A stretch of DNA of 64,000 nucleotides. Source: Bdellovibrionales bacterium RIFCSPHIGHO2_01_FULL_40_29 (GTDB taxonomy: Bacteria; Bdellovibrionota; Bdellovibrionia; Bdellovibrionales; Bdellovibrionaceae). Numbering within the stretch: position 1 is the first letter of the stretch; each line of letters starts with the position of its first letter. The notes beneath the pieces are model-generated. The model saw nothing but the letters and a program-made list of their open reading frames with translations, did no database searches and had not been told where the DNA came from. Made by a program: the position numbers and the translations under genes. The stretch lies in NCBI GenBank assembly GCA_001771815.1, contig MEPU01000013.1:186001-250000 (forward strand). Direction: 5' to 3'. This document shows, piece by piece, positions 43,840 through 48,025 of this stretch.

Positions 43840-43978
43840 CAGCAGTGATTGCGATGCGCTTACGACCCTTAGCTCGACGACGTGCTAATACCTTTTGTCC
43901 ATCTTTGGTTGCCATGCGGGCGCGAAAACCGTGAGTTTTTTTGCGACGACGATTACTTGGTTGATATGTTCTTTTCAT
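43829..43978 (-). CDS. rpmH: 50S ribosomal protein L34
   Basis: 49 residues, too short for many gene callers. [20 protein letters not shown] is the L34 N-terminus and the chain continues with a Lys/Arg-rich helix ending TAGGK. AGAGGTGTAGA precedes the ATG. First gene of the minus-strand cluster running from the origin, divergent from dnaA. Confidence 0.97.
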
Positions 43979-43996
43979 TCTACACCTCTATATATA

Positions 43997-44014
43997 ACTA
44001 GTTTTTCAACTAGT
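43997..44014 (-). promoter_or_regulatory. Hairpin with GAAA loop in the rpmH leader
   Basis: On the minus strand ACTAGTT-GAAA-AACTAGT forms a 7-bp stem with a GNRA-type tetraloop, 19 bp before the rpmH ATG. It may be a leader structure. No T tract follows it. Confidence 0.4.
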
Positions 44015-44042
44015 GTTCCTACGACGTCATTCACGTCAATTG

Positions 44043-44118
44043 TATAATATTTAAGCAGTCCTAAATATTGTGAATTAAATATAAAGCACATTGCGGCATA
44101 GTGGTCAACTGTTGATAA
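44043..44118 (+). promoter_or_regulatory. dnaA upstream region: -10-like TATAAT and DnaA-box-like site
   Basis: TATAAT at 44043-44048 could be the -10 of a dnaA promoter, though the -35 region is poor. TGTTGATAA at 44110-44118 matches the DnaA box TGTGGATAA in 8 of 9 bases and recurs after dnaA. It lies between the possible promoter and the gene, so DnaA autoregulation is plausible. Confidence 0.35.
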
Positions 44119-44161
44119 GTCGGACTGCTAAGGTTAATCAGTTCAGGTCCAGAGGGGGATC

Positions 44162-45562
44162 ATGGAAATCAATAGTTCGTTTTGGAGTCAAATCAAATCC
44201 TCGATGAAAAGCAAAAACGGAGCTAATAAGCTCTTGGAGAACTGGTTAGACCCCATTGATTTGATTAAAACTGAAAAAATTGATGGTGTATTTAAAATCA
44301 CACTAGGTGTTCCAAATCAGTTTTTTTATTTCTACGTGAATGAACATTTAAAAGAAAAAATCACACTAGAGCTTGCAAGTGTTTCAAATCAACCGACAGT
44401 GGTTGAGTTCATAGTTACTGGAAAAGTAGCCGATGATTACAACACGTCTTTGCAAGATATTATGCAAAATGCAGATCAGGTCTTTCAAACACCTGTTGCG
44501 CCTGTTCTCGCGCCTCAACCTGCAAAGCTCTATGAAAATATTAATTCTGATTTTACTTTTTCGACATTTGTGGTTGGAAAAAACTCTGAATTTGCCCACG
44601 CAGCGACCTATAATGTCTCTAGAAATCCAGGGGCTGATGACTATAATCCCCTTTTTATCTATGGTCCGTCTGGAATGGGAAAGACACACTTGCTGAATGC
44701 AGCTGCGAATGAAATTCGACATAATTTTTCACATCTTCGCATTTCATATATTTCAGCAGAACGCTTTTTAAACGAGTGTGTTTCGGCAATCCGACGTCAA
44801 GAAATGGATAAATTTCGTCAAAAATATCGCGATAACACAGATATTTTAGTTGTGGACGACGTTCAAATGATTGGTCGTGGACAAGCTGTTCAAGAAGAGT
44901 TTTTCCACACAATCAACACTTTTATCGAACGAAAAAAACAGGTTATTTTGGCAAGTGATCGCATGCCAAAAGATATTTTAAATTTAGAAGATCGTTCTCG
45001 AACCCGTTTAGAGCGTGGCTTAATTGCTGATATTACAATGCCAGATCTTGAAACACGCATCGCCATTTTAAGATATAAATCAGAAAATTTTAATTTAAGA
45101 ATTTCAGAAGAAACCATTCAATACATTGCAAAAATTTCAAAAAAATCAATACGAGAGCTTGAAGGTAATCTTAAAAAAATAAAAATGTATTCTGAACTTC
45201 AGGGTCTTAGTATCAATATTGAGCTAGCTCGAAAAGTTTTGGCCCATCATGAAAATACAGTCACCATCAGTGTAGATGAAATTTTACGCATTGTTTCCGA
45301 ATACTATAAAATACGCATAACTGATTTGAAATCAACAAGTCGGGCACGTCCAATAGTTGTTCCACGCCAAATTGCTATGTATTTAATCAAGAAATTTTTG
45401 GATAAATCTTTGGTGGATATAGGGCGCGCTTTTGGAGGCAGAGATCACACGACAGTGATCAATTCCTTAGAAAAGGTACAATCTCTACAGAGTAAAGACC
45501 CTCAATTTAAGAATGATATCGATGAGTTAACCAATGTTATCAACAATATCACCGGATTGTGA
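44162..45562 (+). CDS. dnaA: Chromosomal replication initiator DnaA
   Basis: AAA+ initiator, 466 residues. N-terminal domain I (about 1-90), variable linker, ATPase domain with Walker A GPSGMGKTH near residues 168-176 and VVDDVQ, and the C-terminal HTH domain IV with GRAFGGRDHTTVI, which reads DnaA boxes. Strong AGAGGGGG ribosome site. Flanked by candidate DnaA boxes on both sides. Confidence 0.98.
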   Translation: MEINSSFWSQIKSSMKSKNGANKLLENWLDPIDLIKTEKIDGVFKITLGVPNQFFYFYVNEHLKEKITLELASVSNQPTVVEFIVTGKVADDYNTSLQDIMQNADQVFQTPVAPVLAPQPAKLYENINSDFTFSTFVVGKNSEFAHAATYNVSRNPGADDYNPLFIYGPSGMGKTHLLNAAANEIRHNFSHLRISYISAERFLNECVSAIRRQEMDKFRQKYRDNTDILVVDDVQMIGRGQAVQEEFFHTINTFIERKKQVILASDRMPKDILNLEDRSRTRLERGLIADITMPDLETRIAILRYKSENFNLRISEETIQYIAKISKKSIRELEGNLKKIKMYSELQGLSINIELARKVLAHHENTVTISVDEILRIVSEYYKIRITDLKSTSRARPIVVPRQIAMYLIKKFLDKSLVDIGRAFGGRDHTTVINSLEKVQSLQSKDPQFKNDIDELTNVINNITGL

Positions 45563-45774
45563 TTGTGGATTGTGGAAACTGGTGTTGATAAACTAGTGTA
45601 TTAAAATGTGGGAAAAGTTTCCCCCGTTTTTGACGAAAATTTGAATGTGTTAACAGATTGAGTTTTCCACGAACAAAGGTTAATAGTTTCAGCTGGTTAG
45701 TAGAAATATCCAATTACCAACGGGCCTACTACTACTACTACTTATATATAATACTAATATTAGGAAACAGAAGA
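45563..45774. other. oriC: Candidate replication origin oriC (dnaA-dnaN gap)
   Basis: A 212-bp gap with degenerate DnaA boxes: TGTGGATTG (45564), TGTGGAAAC (45571), TGTTGATAA (45583), TGTGGGAAA (45607) and TTTTCCACG on the other strand (45663). Then the GC cluster CGGGCC (45721-45726), a perfect CTA repeat and a TA-rich tract up to the dnaN ribosome site. This is the order box - GC cluster - DnaA-trio - unwinding element of the basal unwinding system. No box is a perfect consensus. The origin call is supported by strand switching of genes around it. Confidence 0.75.
45726..45742. repeat. CTA trinucleotide repeat = DnaA-trio array
   Basis: CTACTACTACTACTACT on top; the bottom strand reads 3'-GAT-5' five times in succession, the trinucleotide that DnaA filaments bind on single-stranded DNA at bacterial origins. 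It touches the GC cluster on the left and TATATATAATA on the right, with DnaA boxes further left, which is the expected polarity. Confidence 0.7.
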
Positions 45775-46881
45775 ATGAAAATAGAGATACAAAAAAAAGA
45801 TTTATTAAATCTATTAAGTCGTACTCAAAACATTGTAGAAAAAAGAAATACAATGCCCATTCTCATTAATGTTTTGTTAGAAGCTCAAAGCACTTTCCTC
45901 AAAGCCTACGCAACAGATTTAGAAGTCAGTCTTACAGATACGGCACCGGCTCAAATAAAAGAGGCTGGTAAAGTCGCAGTGAGCGCTAAGAGCCTATTTG
46001 AGATTACGAAGGAACTCTTTGATGGACCAATTCAATTAATTAAGAAAGAAAATAATTGGTTAGAAATTAAACAGGGTAAATTTTTATCTAAGATCATTGG
46101 TGTAGCCGCTGATGAGTATCCTGTTTTTCCAACTTATAATTCAGAAAATTTTTCTAAGATCAATGCGGCCGAATTTAAAATGATGATCGATAAAACAATA
46201 TACAGTGTATCAAATGATGAAACTCGATATCACTTGAATGGTGTTTTTTTTGAATCTTATGAAAAAAATCGAATTACAATGGTGGCTACTGATGGTCATC
46301 GATTAAGTATGATTAAGAAAAGTTTTAAAGAATTAAGTTTTAATGAAAAAATCGGCGTCATTATTCCTAAAAAAGGATTATTTGAAATTAAAAAATTAAT
46401 TGAATCAACAGTAGATGATGTTTTTATTGCTGTGGAAGGATCTCAGTTTATTTTAAAAGCTGGAACAAGTATTCTGATGATTCGTCTTATCGAAGGTAAA
46501 TATCCTAATTATCAACAGTTTATTCCACAGAAGTTGACTCATAAAATCACTGTTCCTCGCGAGTCTATTTTATCAAGTTTAAAACGTGTTTCTTTATTAG
46601 CTAATCAAAAATCAAAAGCTATTTTAATGCATTTCACAGAGGGTAAATTAGAAATCACTTCTAATAATCCCGAGCTTGGTGATGCTAAGGAAGAATTAGA
46701 TATTAATTATAAAGGTCCTGAATTAAAAATAGGTTTTAATGCGCGGTATATTGAAGATGTTTTAAAAAATATCGAACAAGATCATGTTGAATTTGAATTG
46801 AATGATCAGCTCTCTCCTGGTGTATTAAAACCAGCTGATAATTCTGATTATTTGAATGTTGTTATGCCTATGAGAATTTGA
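45775..46881 (+). CDS. dnaN: DNA polymerase III beta sliding clamp
   Basis: Processivity clamp, 368 residues, three repeated clamp domains. The start MKIEIQKKDLL at 45775 follows AGGAAA by about 8 bp; the longer frame from 45658 reads through the origin repeat as poly-Tyr and is not credible. The C-terminal end NVVMPMRI fits the family (usual ..PMR(L/I)). Confidence 0.97.
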   Translation: MKIEIQKKDLLNLLSRTQNIVEKRNTMPILINVLLEAQSTFLKAYATDLEVSLTDTAPAQIKEAGKVAVSAKSLFEITKELFDGPIQLIKKENNWLEIKQGKFLSKIIGVAADEYPVFPTYNSENFSKINAAEFKMMIDKTIYSVSNDETRYHLNGVFFESYEKNRITMVATDGHRLSMIKKSFKELSFNEKIGVIIPKKGLFEIKKLIESTVDDVFIAVEGSQFILKAGTSILMIRLIEGKYPNYQQFIPQKLTHKITVPRESILSSLKRVSLLANQKSKAILMHFTEGKLEITSNNPELGDAKEELDINYKGPELKIGFNARYIEDVLKNIEQDHVEFELNDQLSPGVLKPADNSDYLNVVMPMRI

Positions 46882-46897
46882 TTTTAGAAAGATCCTT

Positions 46898-48025
46898 ATG
46901 AAAATTCGTCACGCATCAATTTCGAATTTTCGTAATTTTGAGTCTCTTCAAATTAAATTTGCAGATCGCTTAAATATTTTTGTTGGCGAAAATGGACAGG
47001 GTAAAACAAATATTTTAGAAGCTGTTTATTTTATAATCGAGGGTGAAAGTTTTCGCTATTCAAGATACGACACTCTTATTCAAGAAAATAAATCTGAAGC
47101 CTTTATAAAATGTCTGATTGAAAATCGAAATTTAGATTATGATTTAAAAATTAATCTAACAGCTCATCATAAAAATTTTTTAATTAATGAAAAAAAATCA
47201 TCTCAAATCGCGGCTGAGTTGCCTCCAGCGATTCTTTTTTCTCCTGAAAGTTTAAATAGTATTAAAGAAAGTGCAGACCATCGCAGACAGCTTTTAGATC
47301 AAATACTGATTCAAACCTATACTTTTGGTAAAAAGCTCGTTAACGAGTTCAAGAGAGCTCTTAAAACACGAAATAAACTGCTTAAAGACATCAATTCTGA
47401 AAAAATAGACCGAGAAATTGGAATAAAAACTTTAGAAAGTTTAAACCCCATTTATTTAAAACTGGCGTCGGAATTGACGTTTTTAAGATTAGAAGCACTT
47501 AAAAATATAAAACCTGATGTCCAAAAAACATTGAATGAAATCCATAACGAGAATCAGGCTATTTTTGATTATAATTACATAATATCAGATCAGAATTTTT
47601 GCAATGAAAGTGCTCAAAAAATACTCGAATTTTTAGAAAAAAGGCTCGAAGATTTAGCTATTGCTGAGATCCGCTCAGGAGCTTCTCTAATCGGCCCCCA
47701 GAAGCATGATGTGGTCTTTCTATATAACGGAAAAGACTCACGATTTTTTTGTTCGCAGGGGCAGCAAAGATCCATCATATTAGCTTTCAAAATGGCGCAA
47801 ATTGTGTATCATCATAGGGTTCATGGATTTTATCCTGTGCTACTTTTAGATGATGTGTTGTCTGAGCTGGATTTGAGTAAGCAAGAATCGTTAATTTCGA
47901 CTCTCAATCAAATAGAAACTCAGACCTTCGTAACAACGACAGACACATCTGTTCTAAAAAAATTACGCATGGAAAAAAGTCAAATTTTTCACGTGGATTC
48001 CGGAATTGTTACGCTTCATTCGTAA
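46898..48025 (+). CDS. recF: DNA replication and repair protein RecF
   Basis: SMC-like ATPase loading RecA at gaps, 375 residues. Walker A GENGQGKTNILEAVYF (about residues 30-45), signature SQGQQRSIILAFK near residue 295 and Walker B LLLDDVLSELD. 16 bp after dnaN, before gyrB, as in the ancestral dnaA-dnaN-recF-gyrB order. Confidence 0.96.
   Translation: MKIRHASISNFRNFESLQIKFADRLNIFVGENGQGKTNILEAVYFIIEGESFRYSRYDTLIQENKSEAFIKCLIENRNLDYDLKINLTAHHKNFLINEKKSSQIAAELPPAILFSPESLNSIKESADHRRQLLDQILIQTYTFGKKLVNEFKRALKTRNKLLKDINSEKIDREIGIKTLESLNPIYLKLASELTFLRLEALKNIKPDVQKTLNEIHNENQAIFDYNYIISDQNFCNESAQKILEFLEKRLEDLAIAEIRSGASLIGPQKHDVVFLYNGKDSRFFCSQGQQRSIILAFKMAQIVYHHRVHGFYPVLLLDDVLSELDLSKQESLISTLNQIETQTFVTTTDTSVLKKLRMEKSQIFHVDSGIVTLHS

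Follow-up and report, generated by a model that had tools for sequence, protein, structure and literature searches.

The 212-bp gap between dnaA and dnaN in the DNA analyzed here (a stretch of 64,000 nucleotides, hereafter the window) is very likely a replication origin, oriC, with a DnaA-trio, and its host is a relative of the predatory Bdellovibrio. The host genus appears to be Pseudobdellovibrio. A DnaA-trio origin has already been described in Bdellovibrio bacteriovorus, and the present one is of this known kind; the variant is a degenerate DnaA box beside the trio, found across the genus of the window (Table 1).

The initial annotation had proposed that this gap is an oriC with a DnaA-trio and an adjoining unwinding element. 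Cumulative GC skew was computed for the 596-kb contig that includes the gap, 1 of the 13 contigs. The minimum, expected at the site of a functional oriC, is at 229,044, 2.5 kb from the gap (231,563-231,774 on this contig), within the contig. Comparison of the dnaA-dnaN gap in relatives showed that the CTA array is retained. Thus, neither of the two outcomes that the initial annotation had named as contrary, a skew minimum elsewhere or relatives without the repeat, was observed, and the proposal is supported. The order of the genes, dnaA, dnaN, recF, gyrB and gyrA, with rnpA and yidC upstream, was assigned by reading the translations. As a separate observation, the GC content drops to 0.31 in positions 46001-48000, over dnaN and recF, compared with about 0.40 in the surroundings.

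Table 1. Features of the dnaA-dnaN region (positions in the window)
Feature	Position	Strand	Remarks
dnaA	44162..45562	+	466 aa; phmmer vs B. subtilis DnaA 8btg, E 1.6e-87
DnaA-box-like TTATCAACA in dnaA 3' end	45537..45545	+	offset -189 from array
oriC (dnaA-dnaN gap), very likely	45563..45774	.	homologous to 232-bp mapped B. bacteriovorus oriC
DnaA box CAATCCACA	45564..45572	-	exact match to Bdellovibrio consensus NNWTCCACA
DnaA box GTTTCCACA	45571..45579	-	offset -155, order-conserved position
DnaA box TTATCAACA	45583..45591	-	offset -143, order-conserved position
Weak DnaA box TTTCCCACA	45607..45615	-	offset -119, conserved position
DnaA box TTTTCCACG	45663..45671	+	offset -63; at -63 or -64 in 11/11 genus genomes
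Degenerate trio-adjacent box (possible) TTACCAACG	45714..45722	+	offset -12; 3 mismatches to TTATCCACA
GC spacer GGC, 3 nt	45723..45725	+	sequence
DnaA-trio array, 3'-GAT-5' x5 + 3'-GAA-5' on bottom strand	45726..45743	-	sequence
DNA unwinding element, predicted	45732..45761	.	least stable 30-mer in window
dnaN	45775..46881	+	

The five CTA triplets that had been noticed in the gap are present exactly at 45726-45740. After them come an imperfect sixth triplet, CTT (45741-45743), and TATATATAATA (45743-45753). The bottom strand, with five GAT and one GAA, thus holds more than the three consecutive central-adenine trios that are the minimum for a basal unwinding system (BUS). A GC cluster before the array, CGGGCC, was also found as described (45721-45726); since the array already starts with the final C of this cluster, the true spacer is GGC. 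The sequence (CTA)5 is present once in the genome (2,926,733 bases searched), and the reversed control pattern has no copy; under a first-order Markov model, about 2e-4 copies would be expected per genome and about 1.5e-8 in the gap. The 30-mer of lowest stability in the entire window begins within the (CTA)5 array.

Left of the array, none of the box-like 9-mers is a perfect E. coli DnaA box, in agreement with the initial annotation. Its description of the boxes as only degenerate is correct with respect to E. coli, but several of them are at positions conserved in the order, and two fit the consensus of Bdellovibrio. The gap includes four 9-mers with at most one mismatch to TTWTNCACA, compared with 0.67 expected from the genome. 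The two minus-strand boxes starting at 45564 and 45571 are exact matches to NN(A/T)TCCACA, the Bdellovibrio consensus derived experimentally (PMC5124646), where 0.06 are expected. In the genomes of the order, box-like sites cluster, far over the per-offset mean, at -63 and -12 in forward orientation and at -155 and -143 in reverse orientation; the fixed offsets relative to the array are -63, -12, -107/108, -143 and -155. Fixed box positions are a character of the Bdellovibrio-type oriC, and in the window -63, -119, -143 and -155 are occupied as in the order, while the site at -108 is poor and that at -12 is degenerate. Because the poor boxes of the window match the conserved offsets, they mostly lie at real, conserved box positions. 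The 9-mer ATATCCAAT at 45706-45714 was considered as a tandem box and rejected, as it is missing from the sister species. Between the boxes at -63 and -12, at 45681-45695, a GTTTACA-like element is conserved in the wider family, and the genus of the window has GTTTCA. In family f26 (L207-L234, same phylum), many genomes have close, co-oriented dual boxes beside the array (for example, TTATCCACTTATCCACA), which resemble those of B. subtilis; a second box of this kind is mostly missing from the order of the window.

The array was found at the same place in all 61 genomes of the family examined, although it is imperfect in some of them. Of 40 additional class genomes, 38 or 39 also have it; G105 is without it and G126 is doubtful. 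About five triplets are located there in nearly all of the 101 class genomes. The trio had been called unusually regular and long; this was not borne out, as the relatives mostly carry the same five-triplet array, and in 54 of the 101 the number of perfect units is exactly five. Of 99 genomes, 92 have 161-166 nt between the dnaA stop codon and the array; the interval from the array to dnaN ranges from 22 to 197 nt. The rigid dnaA-to-array distance suggests a fixed nucleoprotein geometry; the spacing of 163 nt to the trio hints at an initiation complex that is geometrically fixed. In family f12 (L177-L206, same phylum), no convincing CTA array was found upstream of dnaN when one strand of 30 genomes was scanned, and the single match over the score threshold (G193) looks like a chance occurrence.

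The published BUS rule requires, at most 16 bp from the first trio, a DnaA box that differs from TTATCCACA at no more than two positions. The best site of the window, TTACCAACG at a spacer of 3, has three mismatches and thus fails this rule. In the tree of the DnaA C-terminus, the genus of the window comprises 11 genomes and is monophyletic. In these genomes the trio-adjacent site is TTACCAACG or another sequence, always with at least three mismatches, and thus none of the 11 satisfies the rule, while it is satisfied by 45 of the 50 remaining genomes of the family and by 22 of the 38 remaining ones of the class; the box at -63 or -64 is kept in all 11. The DHTTV DNA-contact motif of DnaA has no change that accounts for the degenerate box. 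These 11 genomes without a good trio-adjacent box are a natural test of the need of the BUS for such a box. The initial annotation had suggested that the trio outweighs the poor boxes. This idea is partly supported, since all genomes of the genus have a degenerate box beside the trio; the greater functional weight of the trio is putative.

One possible, although doubtful, explanation is that in this genus the box 63 bp upstream, at a distance of six helical turns, is the main source from which DnaA reaches the trio, through looping or a long filament, and that the adjacent site has ceased to be a DnaA box. The uniform degeneration of the adjacent site together with the retention of the upstream box is consistent with this, and three or fewer mismatches at the adjacent site are reached by about one third of shuffled sequences. 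However, TTACCAACG is common to four species and resembles TTATCAACG, and the site is in the exact -12 register in most cases; a good box is found at this site in most of the family. Because TTATCAACG-like sites are frequent at the trio-adjacent spot in the rest of the order, a weak box is possible in the genus of the window, and 45714-45722 may be such a box.

An origin located elsewhere, for example in the rpmH-dnaA gap, or a bipartite origin, seems improbable. Three box-like sites with one mismatch lie in 43840-44161, but this interval has single-mismatch sites only, whereas it is the dnaA-dnaN gap that has the conserved array and the DNA of lowest stability, and the mapped initiation point of B. 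bacteriovorus also falls in this gap (PMC5124646). It is very improbable that the CTA run, a perfect trinucleotide repeat, is a slippage-prone microsatellite without a role: about five triplets are found order-wide, the arrays differ by base substitutions that vary with triplet position and not by length, their position is fixed relative to dnaA, and the genome has one copy. Less probable still is that the array encodes YYYYY of an N-terminally extended DnaN, since the frame from a TTG codon at 45658 to 45774 is open in the window but is not kept within the genus (48, 49, 50, 52 or 53 nt from array to ATG), and the dnaN match begins at the ATG. Both the microsatellite and the coding readings were rejected, given the fixed length and position of the array and the unconserved frame, respectively.

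The first triplet hardly varies among the 67 distinct arrays. At the central position, read on the trio strand, A is replaced by C in 32 cases, by T in 9 and by G in none. By parsimony on a rough tree of the DnaA C-terminus, T on the top strand changed to G about 22 times, to A 8 times and never to C; for triplets 1-4, leaving aside the fifth as possibly in part an edge of the array, the numbers are 16, 8 and none. T to C is a transition, yet it is absent among these top-strand central changes. In f26, arrays were scored on positions 1 and 3 of each triplet alone, so that the scan had no bias to any central base; in the 25 arrays found, the top-strand central base is T 110 times, G 14 times, C once and never A, in a count that leaves out the chance match G193 of f12. 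In B. subtilis, activity is retained when C replaces the central A and is impaired by G or T; the amine is contacted by Asn187 (PMC10721633). The excess of C and the lack of A to G agree with these nucleobase-capture experiments in Bacillus, although the nine cases of T do not. Evolution has mostly put C for A and never G in these 67 arrays, consistent with the primary-amine nucleobase-capture model; the arrays are in this respect a natural test of the central bases that a BUS tolerates. A limited search of the open-access literature found no report of this natural central-base pattern. Tentatively, and with more doubt than confidence, we propose that the BUS of Pseudobdellovibrio has lost its trio-adjacent box, so that DnaA comes from a box exactly six helical turns away, and that the trios of the phylum commonly have a central C, which the published (.A.)n search pattern disallows.

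We consider it highly probable that the gap is the chromosomal oriC and works by a box cluster, trio capture and duplex opening. This reading brings together the location and anatomy of the gap, its conservation and rigid spacing, the predicted instability of the duplex, and the conservation of most trio-pocket residues of DnaA. By analogy with the experiments in B. subtilis and B. bacteriovorus, DnaA would bind the box cluster from the dnaA 3' end to 45671, with the conserved -63 box as an anchor, and DnaA-ATP would extend rightward across the weak or degenerate proximal site, whose role in initiation is uncertain, onto the 3'-GAT-5' repeats of the bottom strand. There, DnaA would capture two bases per triplet and melt the AT-rich duplex at about 45732-45761.

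The oriC of B. bacteriovorus is a dnaA-dnaN gap of 232 bp that was mapped experimentally, with footprints on the boxes, P1-sensitive unwinding, and a RIP-mapped initiation point in the unwinding element (PMC5124646). Its trio array lies beside box 1 with a short GC-rich spacer between them, and two of the bound boxes are within the dnaA 3' end (PMC5124646). The window is like this origin in gene order, in the use of the dnaA-dnaN gap, in boxes that run into the dnaA 3' end, and in the succession of GC spacer, trio array and unwinding element. Four trios were counted for B. bacteriovorus (PMC5124646), whereas the genomes that probably represent the genus Bdellovibrio show five CTA triplets. In the latter, the array-adjacent box, 3 nt off, is TTTTCCACG (TTTTCCACA in one genome), whereas the window has TTACCAACG. 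Unlike the B. subtilis BUS, the window is without tandem consensus boxes beside the trio, the adjacent site having three mismatches, and its nearest good box starts 63 bp upstream. As in the B. subtilis BUS (PMC8287927, PMC10721633), 3'-GAT-5' trios are located behind a GC-rich spacer and are followed by AT-rich DNA. The window DnaA also has the dinucleotide-pocket residues of a BUS for the most part: in the phmmer alignment with 8btg, the equivalents of Glu183, Asn187, Ile193, Arg202 and Glu228 are identical, while Ile190 is replaced by Val and Asn196 by Gln.
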